64,000 bases of DNA from Actinomycetota bacterium. GTDB lineage: Bacteria > Actinomycetota > Aquicultoria > Aquicultorales > Aquicultoraceae. Positions 1 through 60,463 of this stretch are shown here, piece after piece. The position numbers and the translations under genes were made by a program. Below the pieces are notes generated by a model. It made no database searches. It saw only the letters and a list, made by a program, of their open reading frames with translations, and had not been told where the DNA came from. Numbering within the stretch: position 1 is the first letter of the stretch; each line of letters opens with the position of its first letter. The stretch is from contig JAGXSZ010000022.1 of assembly GCA_018333515.1 (NCBI GenBank), positions 1 through 64,000 on the forward strand. Reading direction: 5' to 3'.

Positions 1-215
1 AGCGGTATCCCGTAAGAGCGATATCGCTAATTTTTAGCAACGCTTAGTGCCCTTATTCACAATACTAGACGCAGCCTTCATTTTGAAAACCTTAAGACCA
101 AACCCGACAAGCGAAAAAGGATAGTATGGGTGTTTTTTACTCCATAGCAAGTCAAATACCGCGCGTTCCCACTTTTTTAAAGTTTGAATACTCTATTTAT
201 TCTATTCCCTGTTGA

Positions 216-274
216 AAGGAGGTGAAATATTTATGAAAGATGTTATTAAATCGATTTCAACGAAAAAGGAGGTG
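216..274 (+). promoter_or_regulatory. Two strong in-frame ribosome binding sites before the cytochrome gene
   Basis: AAAGGAGGTG at about 216-225 precedes ATG 233, and AAAGGAGGTG at about 265-274 precedes ATG 281. Both ATGs are in the cytochrome frame. The second gives a clean signal peptide (MKKALVIMMALALLFAMGG...), so ATG 281 is the preferred start. The first would add 16 polar and basic residues before the hydrophobic core. Two near-perfect sites 48 bases apart may simply raise expression, or may yield two N-terminal forms. Confidence 0.6.
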
Positions 275-280
275 AAAAGT

Positions 281-1831
281 ATGAAAAAAGCATTGGTTAT
301 AATGATGGCTTTGGCGTTGTTGTTCGCGATGGGCGGCATGGCGCTCGCGAAACAGGAGCCCGCAGGCGCTCCGGGCAATATCGTCGCTAGCGACTATGAT
401 ATTTCCGGCAAGAACTGGTTGTACTACGAGGAAGGCAAACCCGCTACCTCAGGTTCCTACACCGGTTCGACGGGTTTTGGCTTAAGCACCCACCCCTACG
501 GCACCTGGAACAGCCCGTATACGGCCGGCGTTGACGGCTACAACTACAACGACGCCCAGGACTACGTTGCGGGCGGCAAGATGGTCGACCGCGACGGCGA
601 CGGCGAATTTACCGATGACGGCGTATTCACGTCCGGCCCGCACGGCGGCTACCTCACATCCACCCACAGGTGCCGTGAGTGCCACGCGGTCCACCGCGCG
701 GCGGGCAAGTTCAAGTTGCTCCGCTCGGACACCAGGTTCGAGGCGTGCGATTGGTGCCACGGCACCGGCGCGGGCTCTGGATACAACATCCAGATGGACA
801 ACAACGACGCCTTTACCACCGAGTACAACGTTGGCCACACCATGGGCTTCGGCATAAGCACCGGCAAGTGGAAAGCGCCGGACGATACCTACCCGGCATT
901 TACGCCTAACTACTGGCAGGGCGGTTTCTCTTGCTTCGACTGCCACAGCCCGCACGCCAACCCGGCGCGCATGCTCGGCTTCAACAACGCCGGCAGGCCG
1001 GTCGGTATCGTCGCTATCGACGGAACCGGCAACGTAAAGGGCCAAGTATACGGTATCGTAAACTCAGGCGGTGACGACTGGGCTACCGCGCTCAAGAAGG
1101 ATGACAACCCGCAGGGCACCAACAAGCCGTTCTGGAAATCCGGCAGTTGGCTCTTGATCAAGAACCCGGACCGCGAGATCGCAAGTACTACGTCGACAAT
1201 CGAGAGCGGTATCTTGAAGCTCGGCGGCAAGAAGATGTCGGAGATAACCTTCGACGCGAAGAACCAGCCCATACTGGACGCGGAGGTTTCCTCGATTACC
1301 ATCAATCCGGGCCAGGAGATTCCGGACAACATAGTTGGTGGTTTGCGTGAGTTCGACAAGAACACGAGCTATCCGGTCAACAAGATAGCCATCGACTGGG
1401 ACGCCCCGATGGGTAACGCCAGGACGCTCTGGAAGCATACAACGGCCGGCGTAACAGCGAAGTTCCCCAAGAGCACCGGTGAGGCAATCGGCTTCCTCGG
1501 CATGAACGTGCGCCGCTCAGAGGCAATCGCTACCTGGATCAACACAGATACCACAAGCGACTATACCTTCACCGAGAAATACACGACCGACGCTACCAAT
1601 TCGAAGGGTGTCGCTTTCAGCGCGACAGCACCGTGTAACGTCTGGAGCGTAAGCGACTTCTGCACCGACTGCCATGACGGTAACGCCGGCAAGCACACGG
1701 TGCAAGCCCCGCTCTTCAGCGAGGACCGCGCGCTCAGGGGTACTACTACCTCGGGAAGCGACGGCAACACGGTTAACGACAGGGCGCACTACGACCTGGC
1801 ATACGGCCACGACTCGCAGCCAAGGCACTGA
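281..1831 (+). CDS. Exported multiheme c-type cytochrome (N-terminal part, ends at in-frame UGA)
   Basis: Secreted or surface c-type cytochrome likely to carry electrons outside the membrane. Residues 1-23 form a signal peptide ending ALA before KQEPAG. Four CxxCH heme sites start near residues 131 (CRECH), 156 (CDWCH), 218 (CFDCH) and 461 (CTDCH), with extra histidines that could be distal ligands. The reading frame stops at TGA 1829-1831, but the same frame continues without another stop to 2458 and holds three more CxxCH sites. The stop therefore appears to lie inside one 725-codon, seven-heme protein. The module GPHGxYxxSxxRCxxCHAxHRA is shared with the C-terminus of the large surface protein at 49145-54181. 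Start chosen at ATG 281 for its Shine-Dalgarno and signal peptide. Confidence 0.85.
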   Translation: MKKALVIMMALALLFAMGGMALAKQEPAGAPGNIVASDYDISGKNWLYYEEGKPATSGSYTGSTGFGLSTHPYGTWNSPYTAGVDGYNYNDAQDYVAGGKMVDRDGDGEFTDDGVFTSGPHGGYLTSTHRCRECHAVHRAAGKFKLLRSDTRFEACDWCHGTGAGSGYNIQMDNNDAFTTEYNVGHTMGFGISTGKWKAPDDTYPAFTPNYWQGGFSCFDCHSPHANPARMLGFNNAGRPVGIVAIDGTGNVKGQVYGIVNSGGDDWATALKKDDNPQGTNKPFWKSGSWLLIKNPDREIASTTSTIESGILKLGGKKMSEITFDAKNQPILDAEVSSITINPGQEIPDNIVGGLREFDKNTSYPVNKIAIDWDAPMGNARTLWKHTTAGVTAKFPKSTGEAIGFLGMNVRRSEAIATWINTDTTSDYTFTEKYTTDATNSKGVAFSATAPCNVWSVSDFCTDCHDGNAGKHTVQAPLFSEDRALRGTTTSGSDGNTVNDRAHYDLAYGHDSQPRH

Positions 1832-15171: not shown

Positions 15172-16010
15172 TACTTCACGTCTATGGTCCCCGTGAAGAC
15201 TTTTTTGGCGGGCCCCTCCATCAGTACACGACCGTCTTCATTCCAGGTAACGGAGAGGTCTCCGCCGGGCAGGTGTATTACGGCGAAACGGCCGGTCTTG
15301 TCGTTGAGCGCGGCGGCGACCAGCGTGGCGCAGGCGCCGGTTCCGCAAGCGAGTGTCTCCCCGCTACCCCGCTCCCAGACACGGAGCGCGATCTCGTCTC
15401 TCGATATGACTTGCGCGAATTCGACGTTGGTCTTCCGCGGAAAGTAGTCACTCGTCTCTATAACCGGCCCAAGCGTTTGAACAGGCGCTTCTTTTACATC
15501 ATCGACGAAGATGACGCAATGCGGGTTGCCCATCGAAACACAGGTCGCTCTAATAACGGTATCGCCGAAGCTAAACCGCTCATCTATCGCTCGCTCGGCT
15601 TCGGTGCGAACCGGTATCTTTAGCGCTTCGAGTTCGGGTGCGCCCATGTCTACCTTCGCCCCTATCGCTCGTCCCCTGTCCAGCACCAGCTCGACCTGTT
15701 TGTCTCCGGCCCTGGTCTCGATAATAAGGGTGGACTTGTCGGTCAACCACTCGTCTACCAGGTATTTAGCGTAGCACCGGATACCGTTGCCGCACATCTC
15801 GGCGAGCGAGCCGTCCGAGTTGTAGTAATCCATAAAGAAATCGGCGCTCGCCGAAGGCCTGGCGAATATCAAGCCGTCGGCACCGATTCCGAAGTTGCGG
15901 TCGCAGAGCGCGGCTATTTGCTCGACAGTCAGAGTAACCGAGCCGTCCAAGTTTTTTATTATTATGAAGTCGTTTCCCAAACCCTCATATTTGGCGAAAT
16001 TCAGCAACAT
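15171..16010 (-). CDS. dapF: Diaminopimelate epimerase
   Basis: Converts LL- to meso-diaminopimelate for lysine and cell wall. The paired catalytic cysteines are in MCGNGIRCYAKY and ACGTGACATLVAA. Start is ATG 16010 (MLLNFAKYEGLGNDF) with AAAGGG upstream, giving 279 residues; the longer frame to 16127 overlaps miaA and adds a basic, non-family sequence. It begins two bases after the miaA stop, so the genes are co-translated. Confidence 0.95.
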   Translation of the reverse strand: MLLNFAKYEGLGNDFIIIKNLDGSVTLTVEQIAALCDRNFGIGADGLIFARPSASADFFMDYYNSDGSLAEMCGNGIRCYAKYLVDEWLTDKSTLIIETRAGDKQVELVLDRGRAIGAKVDMGAPELEALKIPVRTEAERAIDERFSFGDTVIRATCVSMGNPHCVIFVDDVKEAPVQTLGPVIETSDYFPRKTNVEFAQVISRDEIALRVWERGSGETLACGTGACATLVAAALNDKTGRFAVIHLPGGDLSVTWNEDGRVLMEGPAKKVFTGTIDVK

Positions 16011-16012
16011 GG

Positions 16013-16957
16013 TTACCCTTTCAAGTAAAATCCGCCTCCGAGACGGGCTAATATCTCTTCGGCAGCCGCGCCGGCGGATTTCTCCGTCATGTCGACCCAC
16101 GTTATGCGCGGGTCGGCTCTGAACCATGTCATCTGGCGTTTAGCGTATTGCCTGGTTCTTGCTTTTACCGTCGAAATCGCGTCCCCTAAAGAGGTCTCGC
16201 CCTTAATATGGCGAATAACTTCTTTATACCCTATGGCCTGCTGTGATGTCAAAAATTGTTCGTAACCGGCGTCGATTAGTGAGCGGGCTTCTTCGAGCAA
16301 ACCATCCGCGACCATGCGGTCCACACGAACGTTAATGCGCTCATGAAGCAGTGCCCGCTCTATTGTTAAACCAAACATCGCCAGGTCATAATGGGAGACC
16401 CGGTCTGACCAAGCCTTATGAAAATCGCTAAACGGCCGCCCGGTTCGCTCGATTACCTCGAGTGCGCGGATGATGCGGCGCTTGTTTTTGGGGTGGATGA
16501 TATTCTCGGCCGCCGGGTCTTTAGTGAGCAGCTCTCGGTAGAGCGTCTCGGGCTCTGTGTCGGCCGCGCGGTCCTCCAGGCGCTCCCTTATCTCGGATGC
16601 GAGGTCTCCCGCCGGGAATTCCAGTTCGTCTATGACGGATCTGATATACAAACCGGTGCCGCCGGCCAGGATAGGCAGTTTGCCGCGCGCAGTGATGTCT
16701 TTTACGGCGGCGTCCGCGAGGAGCCGGTACGCGGCTACGCTAAAAGGCTCACTGGGCTCGATGATGTCGATGAGATGGTGTGGCACCCCGGCCATTTCTT
16801 CGGCGGTCGCCTTTGCCGTTCCGATGTCCAGGCGCCGATAAACCTGCATAGAGTCGGCCGATACGATTTCGCCGTCGAGCGCTTTCGCGAGCGCCGTCGA
16901 GACGGCGGTCTTGCCGCTCGCGGTGGGACCCGCGATTACGACCAGTTTACTATTCAT
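16013..16957 (-). CDS. miaA: tRNA dimethylallyltransferase
   Basis: Transfers an isopentenyl group to A37 of tRNAs reading UNN codons. It has the P-loop GPTASGKTAVS (residues 9-19), the DSMQVYR substrate motif and LAGGTGLYIRS. At 314 residues it is of normal length. It overlaps the MEMO-AMMECR1 gene by 8 bases; miaB, which modifies the same base further, follows that gene upstream. Confidence 0.96.
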   Translation of the reverse strand: MNSKLVVIAGPTASGKTAVSTALAKALDGEIVSADSMQVYRRLDIGTAKATAEEMAGVPHHLIDIIEPSEPFSVAAYRLLADAAVKDITARGKLPILAGGTGLYIRSVIDELEFPAGDLASEIRERLEDRAADTEPETLYRELLTKDPAAENIIHPKNKRRIIRALEVIERTGRPFSDFHKAWSDRVSHYDLAMFGLTIERALLHERINVRVDRMVADGLLEEARSLIDAGYEQFLTSQQAIGYKEVIRHIKGETSLGDAISTVKARTRQYAKRQMTWFRADPRITWVDMTEKSAGAAAEEILARLGGGFYLKG

Positions 16958-18320
16958 ACCTGGTCACCTTGAATCTATACAGGTCGGCTCGGTCATGTAT
17001 GGGGATGCCCGCTTTTTGCTTGGCGATAGCCAGTTGATGCTCGACCGTATCGACGCCCTCTATGTTGGGCAAGAGCAAGCCGGTCTTCGCGCCTTTTCTG
17101 ACGATTACTCCGTAAAGCTTGGGGTCGAGGTGTGAAGTCGAATCTATTTTTTCGGGCGCGCCCAGGATGTCCACCGAGTATTGAAGGAGCGGCAACTCCG
17201 CTTCGCCGACCGGCGTAAAGCGGGGGTCGGCCTGGGCGGCCTGGACGACATTGGCCATTATTTCGCGGGCGATGTTCTCTTCCGTAGGCAGAATCGTTCC
17301 GACGCAGCCCCTCAGCTCGCCGGCGATTTTAATACAGACAAAGGCTCCGGCGCGCCTGTCGAGCAATTCCCGGAGGGTATTATCGGGCGGCTCGACGACT
17401 TGCCCAAGACCGATATATTGCTCGAGGCTGAGTTTAGCCAGCCTGACAGGCTCGCTCAACTCTTCTTCGAAATCGAGTACCATAAATTCGCGCTCCGGGT
17501 CGGGTCGACCGGGGAGAACCGATGCCACCAGGTAGCCTACACCGAACGGTCCCTCATAAGAATGGATACTGGTGTGAACTTGCCGCCCGTTAAAGCATCC
17601 CGCGAGCGCGTATATCGAACGTAGGCCGCATTCGCCGGCATCTTCGACGAGCATCGGGTCGAGTTCGAAGAGTTCGTTGAAGTCTCCGGTCTCGATTATC
17701 TCGATTATCTTCGCGTCGAAGTCGATTCCGCGCGGGTTAAAGCCGGCCGGCGCACCCGGGGTGAGCCGGTGCGAGAGGTCGCCGCTGGCGATGACGGCGA
17801 CTCTTCCGCCGGCGCGGTTAGCGGCTTTCTCGATAGCGGCGCCCAGCGCGTAGTGCTCGTCCGCTCCCGCGTAGCTGACCGCGAGCGATACCACCGGGAC
17901 GTCGATATATCTTTGAAGGAAATAAAGCGGCACCAGGACACCGTGGTCGAGCGCTTCGGACTGGAACAGCTTGATGTGGTCATTCCCGATTTTGGTTAGC
18001 GATACTCCGTACCTCTCGGCCTCTACCAACAATGCGGCGAGCAGTTCTTCGTCGAGATTTGCTATCAGGCGGATATTGGGGGCTCCGAAATCTTTAAACG
18101 ATCCGGCAAGAATCCGGGTCGTTTTGACCGCAATACTGTCGGCAAAGCCGGCGCTGTGCGGCGATATGAAGACGAGCGTTTCAGGATTGGCCCTAGCGAC
18201 TGCCGCGCATATGGTATCCATCGCCCGCATAGTCGACGACACGCGGTCGATATTATCCCTGCCTATCTCGGGGATAATAATAGGCGGGTGAGGCATCAAA
18301 CAACCGATTACAATAGGCAT
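16950..18320 (-). CDS. AmmeMemoRadiSam protein: MEMO/LigB domain fused to AMMECR1 domain
   Basis: Two-domain protein of 456 residues. Residues ~1-265 form a class III extradiol dioxygenase/MEMO-like domain (CLMPHPPIIIPE, FISPHSAG, IASGDLSHRL). Residues ~280-456 form an AMMECR1 domain (FVCIKIAGELRGCVGT, LPLLQYSVDILG). In many prokaryotes these occur as AmmeMemoRadiSam proteins B and A together with a dedicated radical SAM enzyme; that third member is not in this window. The biochemical role is not settled. It sits between miaA and miaB, overlapping miaA, which may hint at a link to RNA modification or only reflect operon packing. Confidence 0.88.
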   Translation of the reverse strand: MPIVIGCLMPHPPIIIPEIGRDNIDRVSSTMRAMDTICAAVARANPETLVFISPHSAGFADSIAVKTTRILAGSFKDFGAPNIRLIANLDEELLAALLVEAERYGVSLTKIGNDHIKLFQSEALDHGVLVPLYFLQRYIDVPVVSLAVSYAGADEHYALGAAIEKAANRAGGRVAVIASGDLSHRLTPGAPAGFNPRGIDFDAKIIEIIETGDFNELFELDPMLVEDAGECGLRSIYALAGCFNGRQVHTSIHSYEGPFGVGYLVASVLPGRPDPEREFMVLDFEEELSEPVRLAKLSLEQYIGLGQVVEPPDNTLRELLDRRAGAFVCIKIAGELRGCVGTILPTEENIAREIMANVVQAAQADPRFTPVGEAELPLLQYSVDILGAPEKIDSTSHLDPKLYGVIVRKGAKTGLLLPNIEGVDTVEHQLAIAKQKAGIPIHDRADLYRFKVTRYE

Positions 18321-48982: not shown

Positions 48983-49144
48983 AAAAAACTCCTAAATCGG
49001 CGGACCTGGATTTGTCGCATCCGGCGGTCAATACCGACTTAGCCACCCCATGCTTACCTGTAATTCTACTATAAAACACTCGTCCTTCCTAGTGGGAGTG
49101 GGCGGGCTTTCGATATAGACATCTGTTTATCCCGCGGTTCGTCG

Positions 49145-52100
49145 TTAATTGAGCGAGGCGGTCTGGTGGCAACCGACGCAGATATTGTCGACTTGTATCG
49201 GGCTGCTTCCGGCCTTTAGCATGGCGGGCGCCGAACCCGAAGTGTGCGGAAATTTAGCCGCTACCGCCGGGTTCCCGCCGTCGGAAGGGTGGCATTGCTT
49301 GCAGGTAGGGCCGTTGTTGATTTGGTCATATGAGTTCACAATCACCTTGCCGGAAGTATCGGTCGCGATACCGGCGCCCGATGACGCGTGGCTGGCCGCG
49401 CGGCCGGTAAGCGCGCCCAGCGGGACGATTTTGTGTTCGATATCGCCGCTTGCGCCGAAATTCGCGTTGTGGCATGTCGAGCACCACTGGCTGAGCGTCT
49501 GGGTGCTCTCTCCAACGACCGGCGTGTAGTATAGATAGCTCTTGCCCGGATTCGGATTCGACTTAAGGAGCTTGTTAGAGCTATATCCGGCCGGCTTGAT
49601 GCTTTGGTTGTCGTGGACCGAGTGGCATTCGAGACAGCCCCACATGGTCGATGGAACCGTGTATGCCGGGTCGGTATCGCCGGGCGCGATGACCGGTTTG
49701 CCGATTTTATCGGCGCTTATACCATGACCGTTGGCGTCCAAGATAACCGTTTTAGTCGCGGCCCCGCTGACACCGTGGCAAAAATTGCACGAGTCTCCCC
49801 TGATATCGGCCCTGGTGAGTCGATACATGCCAAGCGCTCTATGCCCGGCATGGCAGTCCTTGCATCGATTGGACGCGCTGGTATATCGTCCATGGGGGCC
49901 GGCCGGCGTTTCGGTGTTGACGAGGGGGTAGTTATATCCGCCGATAGGGGTCATGTCGGTGGCGACATACCCCGAAAATTCGATGATACCATCATAGCTT
50001 ATTACGTTGCCGGTGCGGGTGTAATTGCCGCCCGCTACCTCGACCCACGTGCCGGCGCTGGTGTAATGATAAATCCTTGTGCCCTCAGTTGCTTTATCGG
50101 CGCAGCGTAAAGCTATGGTTAGTGGCGGATTGAAAGGCGGCGTCGCGTCGAGCGTAAAGGTATAGTAATAAGCGCTCACGATACTTAGGCCCGCCGGTTT
50201 GGCCTCTGTTTTTACCGAAAACTGCTTGCCGGCGTATTCGGCCGGGATGTCGATTTCGATAGACCCGTCCGCGCTCTCGATTGTCGTGGTATCGCCGGTT
50301 GTCGGCAGCGTCAGCTGAATGTCGACGCTCTCGGCCTGCGCGGGCGCGCTTTTCACACTTTCGCCGGTTGTGTTGACGGCGCCGACTTTATAGGAATAGG
50401 TCCCTTTCGCCGGAACGGTATCGATAAAAGAGCTGGTGGAGGTATCACCGATGTATGCGTAATCCCCTCCGCTCGCCGCTCGAAAAACCCTGTACTTGGC
50501 TATATGCTCGGAGGCGTTGTTGACGTTCCAATCGAGACGGAATTGGAGGTTGTTCACGGCTGAAACTTTCAGGCCGGTCGGGGCCGAGGGCGAAAGCGGT
50601 GTCAGCGTACTCAGCAAGCCGGAGAGCGGTGTCGACGACAATGTAACGATGTCGGGGTCGGCCACCGCGACGCTGCCGGTATTCTCTATCGAGGCGCCTA
50701 TGGTGCGGCCGATGACGGCGTCGAGCGCTACCGACGCCGTTACCAAAAATCGCTTAGGTCCGGCGCTCGTCACCTTCATTCCCGCAATATTATCGAACCG
50801 GACGCCCCCGCCCGTAAATGTGGCGTTGGCGGAAAGCCGCACATCGGCTAGCGATTTAATCCCGTTCTTGTCCGCGTCGTGCCAAAGCTTAATCCCGCCG
50901 GGTTGCGTATCGCTGTCGAGGGCCGTGCCGATTCTTTTTATATCGAGGCGGGTGATGTCGACGTAGTCTTCGTTTACCGACAGGTCGAGTATTTGTATGA
51001 CATTATCCGTAGTCCCGAGGGTGATATTGCCGCCGCCGACCTCGATTTGAACGATGCTTAAGGTATCCGGCTTGTCGAGGACGGTCAGCGTCGCGCCGCT
51101 CAATGCCGTGAAGGGTTCGAGGGTATCGGGCGCGCTAACGGTCACGCTGCTCTGGTTTGCTAAATTAAGTTTTATTGTCGAACCGACAGTCGCCGAGTCC
51201 GCTACCCGCGCCACAACAAATACCGTTTCCGTGGTATTTTCCGCAACATCCAGCGAGAAGGCGAAATTCACGCCGCCGTTAGCAAGCGTTGCCGACGAAA
51301 GCTCTTGGTCGCCGACGGGATCGAAGCTCGAGTTTCCATTCGTATCCCTAAAGAGGCTTATCGATGTTATGTCGGAGGCCGTCGCGGAGCCGACTTGGTC
51401 GAGGCGAAGGCCGGTAATACGGCCGCCATCGCCGGACCTCGCCGCGAACCTAAGCAGGTCTACCACGTTATTTTGGGTGCCCTGTTCGGCGCTGAAGTTG
51501 CGCGGGGCTTCATGCGAAACGTAGAGTACATCCGGCAAGGAGGTGAGCGTTAAGGTGTTAGAGCTGTAATTAGAAAAGTTATAGACTTGACTCGCGCCGG
51601 TTATCCCCAGGGAATTCTTGTCGGCGATATTAGCCCCCAAGGTAACCGAGGTGTTAGATGTACCCGAAATATTGTAGACCACCAAAAAGCTCGACGCCGT
51701 GGTTCCGATGGCCCGCGGCGCGAAAGTTATGACGGCGGACCCACTTGAAAAAGTATTGCTCCCTATTTGTGTATCCTCCGCGTCTATTACCCCATTGTGA
51801 TTCAAATCGGTGTATATGCCCACGCTTGCGATGTCGGAATCGGCCCCGGTACCGGTTCTGTCAACCTCAATCGAATCCAGGGCGACCTCCGAAAAGGTGG
51901 TGCTCAAGCCGAGCCTTTGAGTAACGATATTTGTTTGCCCCTGGTATATGTCACCGGTCGCCACAGCGGTGTTTGTGACGGTAACCGACGCGCCGGGTAT
52001 CGCGGTATCGGCGTTAATGCCCGGGGTCACGGTTGTATTCCAATTTCCCGCCGTGTCACGGGTGAAGCACGCGTAATGGTAGGTGGTTCCGTTTGTCAGC

Positions 52101-54181
52101 GGCCCCAGGTCGGTGTAGGTCGTCGCGATAGGCGGCGCGAGGTCTTCCCAGACGACGGTCGCTAGGGGGTCGGTCGGCCCGGTCGGATACAGGCCGTCGC
52201 CGCGGCGCAGGATTCTTAAGCCGGCAAAATCGGCGTCTATGGGGTTGACCCAACTAAGGGTGGACTGCCGGTCTCCTCCGTCGGCCGCGACAAAACCGCT
52301 GACCGAACCGGGAGGCGAGACATCGATAGCGACGCCGGCGCTGCCCGCGTCGCTCAGCCGCAACGTGTTGGTAGCGACGGCCGCCGTCACGGTCCCCGTC
52401 AACACCGAGTCGGTCGCGGTCGGGGCGAGGTCGAAGACGATTAGGTACTGCCGAGCGGTCTTGTCGACCGCGATATTCAGGCCTGTGAAATGTACTTGGT
52501 TGCCGGAGAGCGCCCCGGTGGAGACCAAGCTGTCCCCGGCGTCCCACTCGTTCGCCGTCCCACCGTTATCTCTGTATATGCGAACGTTGCTCACTTTACT
52601 CGAATCGAAGGCGCTATTACCGGTGAAGGTGATATTCGTTACGGTATCGATACCGGTATTCGCGGCCAGCGTGAAAGCGTCGATGCCGATGTTTGTCGCG
52701 CTCGCCGTGACCGTTTTGTTCGACGGGTTGGCGCCATCGCCCACCATCGTCAACGCGTATCTATCGTAAACGAAATCGAACGGCGTGAAAGCGCTGCTTA
52801 GGTTGAGTTCCAGGGCCGTAGTTCCGCTGGTGTTGGCCCAGTTCGCGCCATCGTAAGTCTTAGCCCATAGGTCGTTGTTGGTATCCCCGACGGTCACCAT
52901 TAGCTTGTTCTCGCCGGGCTGCCTATCGATATCGATAGAGCGGAGGTACCCGAGTAAGTGGCCCGGGTTCCAGTCGGCCGGCGACGTCCAGCCCGCGCTC
53001 GTCCAGCGCCGCCAGTGAATAGCACTGGTCGCATTATCCGCGTAAACGACAATGGCGACCGCGGAAGCGCCCGCAACAGCCCACCCGGCGGCTACCGGCA
53101 TCGTTCCGGCCCAGTTTGGCAAGGCGTACATAGTCGTATCGGCGTTTGCTACCCGGTTGACCCAAGCTCCCCCGTCCCAGACGGCGTATTGCATATCTTG
53201 CACTTTGCTGTCCGCCGTGACCGCGACGATACGGTCGCCTCCGGGCTCGGCCGCAAGGTTGACTACCGTCGCTTCATCGGCCCAGGTCCTAAAGTTGGCG
53301 GCGGCACCCCATGCGCCGCCCGGCGCTTTTCTCACAAATCTTGCCGCAAGGGCGTTATTGGTAAGATTGTTCCAGCCAAAAACTACGATAAGCTCGCCCG
53401 AGTTTTCGTAAGCGGCATCGAACGACTTAGTATCGCCTCCCGTGACGGCAAAGGCAAGGTTCGTCTCGAGCGCCGCCGATTGCGTGCCCCAGGAAGCACC
53501 GTTCCAGATAATCCCCTTTAATGTGTGGCCGCCCACACCGTCGTTTATCGCGTAAAGGAGCGCGATTTCGTTGCTGTTCGGCCTAGCCGTCAGCTCTATC
53601 CATTCGATATTGCCGGCTTCGGCTGCCCCCAAGACGTTCGCGGCGTTCGTCCACGTCGAGCCGTTCCATGCGCGAAATTGCGGATTCGTTCCGGTAGAGT
53701 AGACGACCAGCGCGTTTCCCGAAGACTCTTCGTAGGCTATATCGAAACTTCGCCTGGCGGCAAAGTTTCCGTTCGCGCTTGCGATATTCCACCCGGTTGC
53801 CCAGCTTGAGCCGTTCCATCTCCGTATGCGCAGGTCGCTCCCGCTCCCGCCGTTGGTCGTCAAGATACCGGAGATATTTTCCTTCCGGTTTTTGGCGGTC
53901 TGGTTGATAACCCAGTTTATGGTGGCGCCGGCGACAGCGGAGTCCGTTTGGTTGCCCCAAGAAGACAAACCATGGTCCCATAGGCGATGTTTGGGGGCAC
54001 TGTCAGCGCCCGCTCCATAGACGAGAAGCCCGTCGGTCTTATAGGCGTAAGAATCTTTTGCGTAGCCTATGAAAAACGCGGTTATCACAAGCGCGATCGC
54101 AGCGGCGGCGATGTACTTGGCGCGAGAATACCGCCGCGGCGACAAGCTGGGCTTGGGTTTAGGCTTGCGCTTGCCCAACAT
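49145..54181 (-). CDS. Giant cell-surface protein: repeats, Ca-loop domains, Fn3 and six-heme cytochrome module
   Basis: A 1678-residue membrane-anchored or secreted protein. A basic cytoplasmic tail and one membrane segment (KYIAAAAIALVITAFFIGYA) occupy residues ~23-43. Residues ~48-490 hold repeats with WNGxxW and WDGGxW, probably a beta-propeller. Four similar ~120-150-residue domains follow, each with an Asp-rich calcium-type loop near residues 534, 787, 941 and 1099 (for example DLNHNGVIDAED). Fibronectin type III-like domains lie near 650-740 and 1190-1290, then a ZU5-like segment. The last ~250 residues contain six CxxCH sites (CKDCH, CNFCH, CLECH, CSTCH, CKQCH, CVGCH). The heme module matches the cytochrome at 281-2458. 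Context (TPR anchor protein, S-layer protein) suggests electron transfer at the cell surface combined with adhesion. Confidence 0.85.
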   Translation of the reverse strand: MLGKRKPKPKPSLSPRRYSRAKYIAAAAIALVITAFFIGYAKDSYAYKTDGLLVYGAGADSAPKHRLWDHGLSSWGNQTDSAVAGATINWVINQTAKNRKENISGILTTNGGSGSDLRIRRWNGSSWATGWNIASANGNFAARRSFDIAYEESSGNALVVYSTGTNPQFRAWNGSTWTNAANVLGAAEAGNIEWIELTARPNSNEIALLYAINDGVGGHTLKGIIWNGASWGTQSAALETNLAFAVTGGDTKSFDAAYENSGELIVVFGWNNLTNNALAARFVRKAPGGAWGAAANFRTWADEATVVNLAAEPGGDRIVAVTADSKVQDMQYAVWDGGAWVNRVANADTTMYALPNWAGTMPVAAGWAVAGASAVAIVVYADNATSAIHWRRWTSAGWTSPADWNPGHLLGYLRSIDIDRQPGENKLMVTVGDTNNDLWAKTYDGANWANTSGTTALELNLSSAFTPFDFVYDRYALTMVGDGANPSNKTVTASATNIGIDAFTLAANTGIDTVTNITFTGNSAFDSSKVSNVRIYRDNGGTANEWDAGDSLVSTGALSGNQVHFTGLNIAVDKTARQYLIVFDLAPTATDSVLTGTVTAAVATNTLRLSDAGSAGVAIDVSPPGSVSGFVAADGGDRQSTLSWVNPIDADFAGLRILRRGDGLYPTGPTDPLATVVWEDLAPPIATTYTDLGPLTNGTTYHYACFTRDTAGNWNTTVTPGINADTAIPGASVTVTNTAVATGDIYQGQTNIVTQRLGLSTTFSEVALDSIEVDRTGTGADSDIASVGIYTDLNHNGVIDAEDTQIGSNTFSSGSAVITFAPRAIGTTASSFLVVYNISGTSNTSVTLGANIADKNSLGITGASQVYNFSNYSSNTLTLTSLPDVLYVSHEAPRNFSAEQGTQNNVVDLLRFAARSGDGGRITGLRLDQVGSATASDITSISLFRDTNGNSSFDPVGDQELSSATLANGGVNFAFSLDVAENTTETVFVVARVADSATVGSTIKLNLANQSSVTVSAPDTLEPFTALSGATLTVLDKPDTLSIVQIEVGGGNITLGTTDNVIQILDLSVNEDYVDITRLDIKRIGTALDSDTQPGGIKLWHDADKNGIKSLADVRLSANATFTGGGVRFDNIAGMKVTSAGPKRFLVTASVALDAVIGRTIGASIENTGSVAVADPDIVTLSSTPLSGLLSTLTPLSPSAPTGLKVSAVNNLQFRLDWNVNNASEHIAKYRVFRAASGGDYAYIGDTSTSSFIDTVPAKGTYSYKVGAVNTTGESVKSAPAQAESVDIQLTLPTTGDTTTIESADGSIEIDIPAEYAGKQFSVKTEAKPAGLSIVSAYYYTFTLDATPPFNPPLTIALRCADKATEGTRIYHYTSAGTWVEVAGGNYTRTGNVISYDGIIEFSGYVATDMTPIGGYNYPLVNTETPAGPHGRYTSASNRCKDCHAGHRALGMYRLTRADIRGDSCNFCHGVSGAATKTVILDANGHGISADKIGKPVIAPGDTDPAYTVPSTMWGCLECHSVHDNQSIKPAGYSSNKLLKSNPNPGKSYLYYTPVVGESTQTLSQWCSTCHNANFGASGDIEHKIVPLGALTGRAASHASSGAGIATDTSGKVIVNSYDQINNGPTCKQCHPSDGGNPAVAAKFPHTSGSAPAMLKAGSSPIQVDNICVGCHQTASLN

Positions 54182-54184
54182 CGA

Positions 54185-54871
54185 TTACCTCACCGCCTTC
54201 GACAAACGCTCTTTCGCGTAGGCGTCGTCCGGGTTTACGGCGAGCGCTTTTCGGTAGGAGACCGCGGCTTTTCTCGTCACACCGATACCCATATAAATAT
54301 CGCCGATTTTCTTGTGGATCTCGGCGGCATGGGGCTCGCCCCTCGGCAAGAGGTCGAGCACGTTCTTCCATTCGGCTTGCGCTCGTCGGAAATTTTTTGT
54401 CTCGGTGTAAACATCGGCCAAGCGGTAATGATACTGGACGGTGTTGGGTTTTGCGGCTATCGCTTTTTCCAGGTAGGCAATGGCGTCCTCTGGGCGCTCG
54501 GCGTCGAAAGCCAGGCAGCCCGCCCGGTATAATGCGTCGGGGTCGAGGGGTCTTAGTTCAAGGGCGGCTTCGGTTTCGCGGAATGCTTTCTCCGTTTCTC
54601 CGAGCTGAACATAGCATGTCGCGAGAGTACTCCGCGCTTCGAAATCGTTGTCGTGGTCCTTTAAGTAATCCTCGAGCCCGGTCTTTGCCGTGTCGAAATC
54701 GCCGGCCTTATATGCTTCGTATGACCGCTCTTTTACGCCATCGCTCACCGTCCGCGTTGCGTTGTAGGCGATGACATAATAAGCGACCATTGCCGCTACC
54801 GCAAGCAAGACCGGGATTGCACCGTACACTATAAACGATTTTTTCGGCGTTTTCGGCGACAGGTAATCCAT
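54185..54871 (-). CDS. Membrane-anchored TPR protein
   Basis: A 228-residue protein with one N-terminal membrane helix (AIPVLLAVAAMVAYYVIAY) and about four TPRs outside it (FEARSTLATCYVQLGETEKA; PDALYRAGCLAFDAERPEDA; VQYHYRLADVYTETKNFRRA; AEIHKKIGDIYMGIGVTRKA). It directly precedes the giant surface cytochrome (3 bases between stop and start), so it may help assemble or export it. Confidence 0.82.
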   Translation of the reverse strand: MDYLSPKTPKKSFIVYGAIPVLLAVAAMVAYYVIAYNATRTVSDGVKERSYEAYKAGDFDTAKTGLEDYLKDHDNDFEARSTLATCYVQLGETEKAFRETEAALELRPLDPDALYRAGCLAFDAERPEDAIAYLEKAIAAKPNTVQYHYRLADVYTETKNFRRAQAEWKNVLDLLPRGEPHAAEIHKKIGDIYMGIGVTRKAAVSYRKALAVNPDDAYAKERLSKAVR

Positions 54872-58977: not shown

Positions 58978-60318
58978 CTAAGGCGCCCCCAGGTATTCGT
59001 AGGCATTATATATCATCTTGGCGGCTTCGGCGCGATTCGCCGGCGCGCCGGGCATGAAGAGGTTCCCCGGATAACCACGGACGAAGTCGTATTTGCGTGC
59101 GGTCGTGATATATGCTTGCGCCCAATGGCCGCTCTCGACGTCGGTGAAACTCACCGCCGAAGAGTCAAGGCCGATACCGCCCGCGGCCACGAGCATCTTG
59201 CATATCTCGGCGCGAGTAATGTTGGCCCCCGGCTTGAAGATACCGCCCGGATAGCCGCCGATTACGCCGCGTGCTTTGGCTGTCTCGATATAACCGTAAG
59301 CCCAATGGCCGCTCTCGACGTCGGTGAACGAGCCGGAAGCGGGCCGCGTCTGAGACCACCCGGAAGCTTGGCAGACCATCTTCGCGAACTCCGCCCTGGT
59401 GATGTTGTTTTTCGGTTTGAAGGTCCCGTCGCGGTAACCGCCGAGGACCTCGTATTCGACGAGGAAGAGCAGCTCCGGCGCGAACCAATCACCGGGATAG
59501 ACGTCTTTGAATCCGGCTACCGGCGCTTTCGCACCGGTCCCTAGCACCAGGTCTTTTCCCGTCATCGTCGGGGCGGAACCGGGGATCCACAGGTATTCGT
59601 TTCCCTGTTGGTCGAAGACCGAGATCAAACTCAGGGTATAGGTGCCGGTGCTCTGGTCGATTGGGATATAAAGATTTCCCTCAAGCCGGCCGGTCTTCGA
59701 GTTGTAGGGCAAGAACGCTAATATGGAATTCCAACCGTTACTCCATAGGACTTGCGCCGAAGCTAATCCCGATTCGGAATCCGCCGCCCTTATCGATAGG
59801 CTGACCTTGCCGCCGGGGTTGGTCTGCTTATTTGGGATATCTAAAGAGGTAAATGTGGGGGCGGTGGTGTCGGGGGTCGGGTTGCTGATAGTAATATTGC
59901 CGCCGCTGAGGTCGACTTCGCCCCCGGTCGCCGCGAATATGTTTGAAGAGGTGTCGAAGATTTCGATATAGACCGGTTTCCAGACGCCGGGCGCGTCATA
60001 GCGGTCGACCGCGAAGCTCCCAACGAGTTTTTCTCCTGTGTGGTCGAGAAAGACATATCGGACGATACCGGTGGCGGGCGACTCGAAGCCGACCACGCCG
60101 CCGCTAAGGGCCACATTATCGGTCGCTGTGACAGTGACCGAAATAGCGACGCCCGGGGAGCCGGCGGACGGTGAGACATTTATGGTTTTAAATTTCGGTG
60201 CTTCAAGGTCGAGCGCCGCCGCCGGACCTATTATTAACGTGAGCAATATGTTGATTATAAGCGTGAAAACGATACTCCCGCGGACTGTTGCCCCTATTTT
60301 AGTCCGTCGCGTGCTCAC
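58978..60318 (-). CDS. S-layer homology (SLH) domain surface protein
   Basis: Start is GTG 60318 with GGGGGGAT upstream, giving a signal peptide (VFTLIINILLTLIIGPAAA). The mature protein has two Ig-like/bacterial sugar-binding-like domains (about 45-260) and three SLH repeats over the last ~180 residues (NITRAEFAKMVCQASGW, NITRAEICKMLVAAGG, PANRAEAAKMIYNAYE). SLH domains bind secondary cell-wall polymer, anchoring the protein to the wall. It supports a Gram-positive-like or S-layered envelope. The frame is open to 60396. Confidence 0.9.
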   Translation of the reverse strand: MSTRRTKIGATVRGSIVFTLIINILLTLIIGPAAALDLEAPKFKTINVSPSAGSPGVAISVTVTATDNVALSGGVVGFESPATGIVRYVFLDHTGEKLVGSFAVDRYDAPGVWKPVYIEIFDTSSNIFAATGGEVDLSGGNITISNPTPDTTAPTFTSLDIPNKQTNPGGKVSLSIRAADSESGLASAQVLWSNGWNSILAFLPYNSKTGRLEGNLYIPIDQSTGTYTLSLISVFDQQGNEYLWIPGSAPTMTGKDLVLGTGAKAPVAGFKDVYPGDWFAPELLFLVEYEVLGGYRDGTFKPKNNITRAEFAKMVCQASGWSQTRPASGSFTDVESGHWAYGYIETAKARGVIGGYPGGIFKPGANITRAEICKMLVAAGGIGLDSSAVSFTDVESGHWAQAYITTARKYDFVRGYPGNLFMPGAPANRAEAAKMIYNAYEYLGAP

Positions 60319-60463
60319 ATATCCCCCCAACTCTGCTACGGGCGCTCGATTACGGCTTAAGAGCGCGCGGTCGTCTTTCCGATTATCGTAACGCATGCGC
60401 GCGGTTTTAGCGAGAGTTCGAGTTGGGCTGGTTGAGCTTGCGAGTAAACGGACGCGCCGGCTG

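Follow-up and report, generated by a model that had tools for sequence, protein, structure and literature searches.

The stretch of DNA analysed here, referred to as the window, is 64,000 nucleotides long. One ORF on its reverse strand, the target, encodes a single polypeptide of 1678 residues, with boundaries as given correctly in a first-pass annotation of the window. Behind a probable signal peptide, an HMM census with profiles built from the target protein and its relatives parses the polypeptide sequentially into propeller repeats, a first Ig-like repeat (REP1), an Fn3 domain (F1), three further repeats (REP2, REP3, and REP4), a second Fn3 domain (F2), a ZU5-like segment, and a hexaheme module (HEX) (Table 1). 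The host genome comprises 2.33 Mb in 40 contigs, and its nearest relative is Candidatus Aquicultor (Actinomycetota, Ca. Aquicultoria). It contains about 386 CXXCH-type DNA motifs versus 82 in a reversed control. It also yields 59 SLH-domain matches and four sortases, and together these numbers are as expected for a monoderm that has an S-layer and many multiheme proteins.

The target gene is flanked on one side by an HMA-domain gene together with trmD-rplS and on the other by a gene for an SLH-domain protein, and no other cytochrome is found there. An SLH-domain protein at 58978–60396 of the window (reverse strand) contains three SLH repeats, and a similar neighbor lies near the target in G001 and G003. 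A stable hairpin at 48983–49060 (reverse strand), where it overlaps the ribosome-binding site for the HMA protein encoded downstream of the target, was considered as an RNA switch and rejected. It has no Rfam match and a z of −1.6 and is not kept in relatives.

Table 1. Features of the target locus, with window coordinates and the basis of each assignment.
Feature	Residues	Coordinates	Strand	Basis
Membrane-anchored TPR protein, 228 aa, upstream of target, 3-bp gap		54185..54871	−	Conserved partner
Whole ORF, probably secreted modular hexaheme cytochrome	1678 aa	49145..54181	−	Orthologs in G001, G002, G003; Ka/Ks 0.10–0.28
Probable cleavable Sec signal peptide (DSYA/YK)	1–46	54044..54181	−	Hydrophobic core and signal-peptidase-like site conserved in relatives
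Probable eight-repeat β-propeller, WNG..W, ~54 aa each	45–471	52769..54049	−	Blade profiles cross-detect
REP1, Ig-like, degenerate Asp loop DNGGTANEWDAGD	474–620	52322..52762	−	Profile cross-matches
Fn3 domain F1	628–728	51998..52300	−	Pfam fn3 matched by relatives
REP2, loop DLNHNGVIDAED	730–881	51539..51994	−	Profile cross-matches
REP3, loop DTNGNSSFDPVGD	883–1035	51077..51535	−	Profile cross-matches
REP4, loop DADKNGIKSLAD	1037–1194	50600..51073	−	Profile cross-matches
Fn3 domain F2	1191–1290	50312..50611	−	Pfam PF00041, AF2, Foldseek
Conserved ZU5-like segment	1292–1406	49964..50308	−	Own family in profile census
Hexaheme module HEX	1414–1678	49148..49942	−	Six CXXCH, six conserved distal His; Pfam Cytochrome_C7

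The target is an intact, conserved gene under purifying selection. Its domain order was sought in related genomes and recurs in independent assemblies. The ortholog L013/L046 from a Ca. Aquicultor sp. is a single ORF of 1826 residues with identical order and one additional REP. Ca. A. primus and Yes70-03 share the domain order but are split by assembly gaps or contig ends. Ka/Ks against G002, with REP3 and REP4 left out, ranges from 0.10 in HEX, the most constrained of the parts measured, to 0.28 in F1. At the DNA level, the target gene contains no direct repeat of at least 40 bp, so repeat collapse is unlikely. The contigs of several relatives do end within the repeat region, but the chance that an artefact of assembly or gene calling has fused an adhesin to a cytochrome is negligible: the identical order in independent assemblies, including the unbroken 1826-residue ORF, excludes a misassembled neighboring gene as the source of the heme part, and the lack of DNA-level direct repeats and the purifying selection across the parts measured argue in the same direction. 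No relatives were found among viral contigs.

The N terminus, previously taken for a membrane anchor, is probably a cleaved signal peptide. The N-termini of all relatives have a basic start and a hydrophobic core, followed by a conserved small-x-Ala site. The aligned cleavage-like sites read AKDSYA/YK in the target and TSFA/YK, ASFA/SK, and SSALA/TD in relatives, as scored by the simple −3/−1 rule rather than by a dedicated predictor. The target N terminus contains no lipobox cysteine.

The WNGxxW repeats that follow were proposed to form a propeller, and their organization agrees with this. β-propellers are built of tandem blades of about 40–60 residues, and the target contains eight repeats whose single-blade profiles match other blades in register (blade 2 to 3, 8e-6; blade 3 to 6, 8e-6; blade 8 to 6, 1e-5). 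The propeller region has no family match in Pfam, and a phmmer search of the PDB with residues 49–1197, covering the propeller and the REPs, returned no significant match. With the low-confidence propeller model described below, most Foldseek matches are propellers. The fucose lectins AAL and RSL come out on top, at TM values of about 0.1–0.3, and further matches to the same model include sialidases and GH93/arabinanases. This low-confidence fold match provides a lead toward a lectin-like role of the propeller.

The stalk contains four domains with an Asp-rich loop that was thought to be of calcium type. The four REPs are truly homologous, as a profile built on one recovers the others. Their loops follow the consensus D.N.NG..D..D, of dockerin or EF-hand type. 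In an alignment of 52 repeats (48 non-redundant REPs and the four of the target), the loop columns hold D or N in 65–92%. The REP loops thus appear to be of Ca2+ type, and Ca2+ binding is predicted. REP matches no Pfam family, and its profile retrieves only dockerin-like loop matches from the PDB (best E = 0.015).

Both Fn3 assignments hold. F2 scores 27.3 bits with PF00041 at residues 1199–1283, above the cut-off of 25, reaches an AF2 pLDDT of up to 83, and gives Fn3 matches in Foldseek. F1 is assigned via relatives, 5 of 10 of which match Pfam fn3 (best 2.9e-10). The identity of the ZU5-like segment is unconfirmed: ZU5 (PF00791) does not match residues 1292–1406 of the target and is found in one relative only, at E = 0.22. 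Pfam matches no SLH domain in the target protein, which also has no C-terminal LPXTG signal, the sole LPTTG being internal at residue 1292. As the target carries no recognizable wall anchor, its retention at the surface can only be presumed.

Structure prediction of segments, which had been suggested as a check, contributed weak Foldseek leads to Fn3 domains and propellers, but the AlphaFold models of the propeller–REP half and of F2–ZU5–HEX, each built on 4–5 alignment rows, are poor (mean pLDDT of 38.5 and 39.1, respectively). The fold assignments are therefore based on the repeats, on profile searches, and on fold matches that are weak.

The number of REPs varies among relatives. The target orthologs contain four REPs in G000 and five in G002, where the flanking units are orthologous and one unit is inserted between them. 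A paralogue ranges from two REPs (G000) to at least 11 within a single ORF (G003), and the two G000 units correspond to the first and last REP of G003. Three REP pairs of the G003 paralogue (L056:1-5680, C32) are 99–100% identical in protein, and some near-identical pairs include DNA stretches that are 98–100% identical. A simple explanation of this array is recent tandem duplication, with the reservation that identical units may be misassembled from short reads.

REPs are closely associated with hemes. All seven REP matches in the host genome, counted by open reading frame, lie within multiheme ORFs, and REP bearers elsewhere in the phylum contain 4 to 52 CXXCH motifs. The exceptions are ORFs truncated at the end of a contig and a single non-heme protein from a distant lineage (L081). 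REPs are N-terminal to the hemes in every protein having both. The L081 protein (L081:3-7772) is a 2590-residue open frame with seven REP-like domains, zero CXXCH, and a C-terminal GGGCFVATASFG stretch.

The six CXXCH motifs of the target, at residues 1440, 1465, 1516, 1567, 1627, and 1668, all fall within the last 240 residues. Six distal histidines (1430, 1447, 1486, 1523, 1598, and 1646) are conserved in fused and stand-alone HEX; H1583 is not conserved. The number of six hemes proposed earlier is borne out, and together with the signal-peptide-like N terminus these residues identify a multiheme c-type cytochrome.

Across the class, HEX is also encoded by itself, as a secreted protein some 300 residues long (stand-alone HEX). 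In a maximum-likelihood tree, rooted at the midpoint only, the ten fused HEX copies form one clade (99/97). The fused and stand-alone labels require a single change on this tree, and 0 of 500 label shuffles were as low. As the fused copies form one clade and the stand-alone forms are spread across the class, a single origin of the fusion is simplest, with fused HEX probably derived from the class-wide stand-alone cytochrome.

The Pfam families closest to HEX are Cytochrome_C7 and doubled-CXXCH, with the MtrC/MtrF domain as a marginal match. PF22113 scores 30.9 bits with HEX alone against a cut-off of 30, but 26.4 bits with the full-length protein, and is matched at E ≤ 0.01 by 22 of 25 relatives. 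MtrC and MtrF are absent from the PDB matches of the HEX profile. MtrC, MtrF, and OmcA (PF22113) resemble the target in linking β-domains to multiheme domains, but have five hemes per domain and are outer-membrane lipoproteins. Membership of the target among such lipoproteins, which have two five-heme domains, was rejected on its six hemes in one module and the missing lipobox cysteine. Elsewhere in the window, an ORF at 212–1831 (forward strand) encodes 539 residues with four CXXCH motifs, and its N-terminal part matches HEX hemes 1–3. Several similar genes are found on C7, C20, C8, and C5.

A TPR gene lies upstream of the fusion at 11 of 11 loci having an intact 5′ flank (target-type loci of G000, G001, G002, G003, G005, G008, and G011; paralogue loci of G000, G002, and G003; and G006). 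The gene directly adjoins the fusion at six loci and lies 420 bp off in G005. The protein encoded upstream of the target has an N-terminal membrane helix and scores 44.1 versus 42 bits with the CcmH/CycH TPR model, a match to be read in the light of cross-matching among TPR models. The protein is probably a dedicated partner in assembly, heme loading, or docking.

The paralogue locus on contig C31 of the host genome starts with genes for a TPR protein, an NHL propeller, a stand-alone HEX, a second TPR protein, and a REP2-HEX fusion. The fusion is followed by a 12-heme NapC-type cytochrome (PF03264), a second multiheme protein split by the locus edge, an NHL protein, and a REP-4-heme protein. 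The pair of 12 + 12 hemes is intact in G001, G002, and G005, and adjoins a stand-alone HEX in G006 and G007. As in the target family, clusters that combine multiheme cytochrome, NHL, and TPR genes are described in Dethiobacter, an iron-reducing Gram-positive bacterium, where a role in assembly or orientation has been suggested (PMC10376724). Within the host genome, C31:84001-114000 (L009:13384-14292 and 15466-18009, and L010) is a large cluster of extracellular-electron-transfer (EET) type that also holds several other multihemes. By eye, ResB/CcsA-like System II cytochrome c biogenesis genes lie just 3′ of 14–15-heme ORFs at L051:2219-4541, L055:10665-12654, and L059:14250-16498.

We propose, with a probability of about 0.55, that the target is a secreted surface cytochrome of an EET system, in which the propeller tethers, the stalk spaces, and HEX relays electrons in the wall or matrix. 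The protein would be exported through its cleaved signal peptide, as the conserved site suggests, and its six hemes, bis-His by ligand count, would be loaded outside the membrane. The haem-free Ig/Fn3 array, stiffened by the Ca2+-type loops, would serve as a spacer, and the observed gain and loss of REPs would alter its length. The N-terminal propeller may bind a glycan of the wall, S-layer, or matrix, or a partner or mineral surface, in keeping with the weak lectin-type fold matches. Homology and the paralogue neighborhood suggest that HEX relays electrons among stand-alone HEX and NapC-type twelve-heme membrane cytochromes. HEX would most likely reside in a cytochrome network of the wall or matrix, with the propeller tethering the assembly, and the upstream TPR protein would act in one of the partner roles given above. 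We infer the EET role through the paralogue, to which the EET gene context belongs, the target locus being free of other cytochromes. The first-pass annotation had pictured an adhesive stalk with an electron-transfer module. The variation in repeat number, the lectin-type fold matches, and the EET-type neighborhood of the paralogue speak for that picture, and its domain list largely agrees with the evidence; its membrane anchor is probably wrong, its ZU5 part is unconfirmed, and a wall-spanning stalk with HEX as its tip is a proposal.

Typical domain lengths suggest that four REPs, two Fn3 domains, and one β-domain would extend over roughly 30 nm, about the thickness of a Gram-positive wall. 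Electron tunnelling requires hemes within about 1.4 nm of each other. A stalk that lacks heme over roughly 30 nm would therefore position HEX and not conduct.

The opposite polarity, favored in the first-pass annotation, is conceivable, though unlikely. The N-terminal half would then hold the protein in the wall, with HEX as a distal electron-transfer tip pointing outward. Heme modules are C-terminal in every architecture seen, and the estimated stalk length matches a Gram-positive wall, both of which suit this arrangement. However, its premise of a transmembrane anchor looks wrong, and electrons cannot reach a distal tip along a haem-free stalk; other cytochromes must bridge the distance.

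We consider it distinctly unlikely that the target works in adhesion or in the matrix and uses its hemes in another role, as a terminal reductase or a heme or electron reservoir, with no part in long-range EET. Cytochrome c7/c3-type modules are known also from storage and shuttle proteins, and no other cytochrome gene neighbors that of the target. The close kinship with stand-alone HEX, encoded beside NapC-type cytochromes and NHL/TPR genes, argues against such a role, as does the apparent six-coordinate bis-His ligation of all hemes, which leaves no evident open catalytic site.

A further alternative relates HEX to the Geobacter nanowire cytochromes OmcE and OmcS. Stand-alone HEX would polymerize in a similar manner, and the fusion would cap or root the filament as its terminal subunit, attaching it via the stalk and propeller. 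OmcE (7tfs) is the top PDB match of the HEX profile (E = 1.2e-4), and a profile of HEX hemes 3–6 ranks OmcE first (1.5e-4) and OmcS third (0.008). HEX has as many hemes as OmcS, and by eye its motifs run collinear with those of OmcS, with CxxCHxxH at heme 1, GH and then CxxCH.PH at heme 3, S.WCxxCH at heme 4, and heme 6 at the extreme C terminus. Stand-alone and fused HEX genes are also adjacent on C31. However, the likeness remains suggestive, since some motif-preserving shuffles reach the real scores. In this control, the residues of OmcE and OmcS between the heme motifs were shuffled, the motifs being kept in place, and scores were computed again without any filter. The OmcE score was reached by 3/1000 shuffles with CxxCH kept and by 21/1000 with the extended motif kept, and the OmcS score by 27/1000 and 52/1000, respectively. 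A single-sequence phmmer search of the PDB with stand-alone HEX found neither OmcE nor OmcS and nothing significant. The AF2 model of the heme part of the target has no useful confidence (pLDDT of about 25). With six distal histidines for six hemes, a ligand from a neighboring subunit is not required. The target also differs from OmcE and OmcS by its 1400 residues of non-heme modules. We regard the filament-terminal reading as improbable. A marginally slimmer chance is given to the fusion as an attachment subunit at the tip or root, whose HEX copolymerizes with or caps the wire and whose variable stalk ties the wire to a glycan. We know of no tip or anchor subunit for cytochrome nanowires. The paper on OmcZ goes no further than to note that it leaves ‘possible tip proteins’ out of consideration (PMC9473688).

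The propeller–stalk–hexaheme architecture was not found described in the literature searched; modular surface multiheme cytochromes as such are already known. ANME archaea possess giant multiheme cytochromes, MHC-A, -B, and -C, with S-layer or pectin-lyase domains (PMC9012536). Like the target, these proteins combine surface-layer or adhesion-type domains with a multiheme c-type cytochrome and belong to cells that lack an outer membrane, and they are proposed to put hemes across or on the envelope. Unlike them, the target contains an N-terminal propeller, has neither an S-layer domain nor a C-terminal membrane helix, and keeps all of its hemes in one small module at the C terminus, carried by an Ig/Fn3 stalk that is itself haem-free. 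The EET cytochromes of Gram-positive bacteria, including OmhA and SmhA-C of Carboxydothermus and OcwA and the wall-linked TherJR_1122 of Thermincola (PMC7829351), are likewise secreted or wall-associated multihemes of monoderms. A propeller/Ig/Fn3 stalk is not described for them, and by their descriptions they are set apart from the target. Ca2+-dependent Ig-repeat adhesins (SiiE-type and SdrD B-type) share with the target tandem Ig-like repeats with acidic loops and a spacer of variable length. The target differs in its cytochrome end module and has no sequence family in common with them.

How electron-transfer proteins are placed in or beyond the thick wall of monoderms is an unsettled question on which the target family bears. 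The family suggests an evolvable solution, in which a conserved stand-alone cytochrome is also found joined, in copies that form a single clade, to a spacer whose length can be tuned. Cells may in this way keep electron-transfer parts at a fixed distance from their own surface. If the spacer and tether roles are true, they offer a direct handle on the EET of uncultured subsurface Actinomycetota, and REP, an Ig-like repeat that in the target lineage occurs almost exclusively in multiheme cytochromes (4 to 52 hemes per head), becomes a sequence marker to find such cytochromes.

Two giant cytochrome ORFs share REP or Fn3 modules with the target. One, L082:2-12214, encodes at least 4071 residues with 52 CXXCH motifs, and the other, L057:2-8746, encodes 2915 residues with 30 CXXCH motifs.
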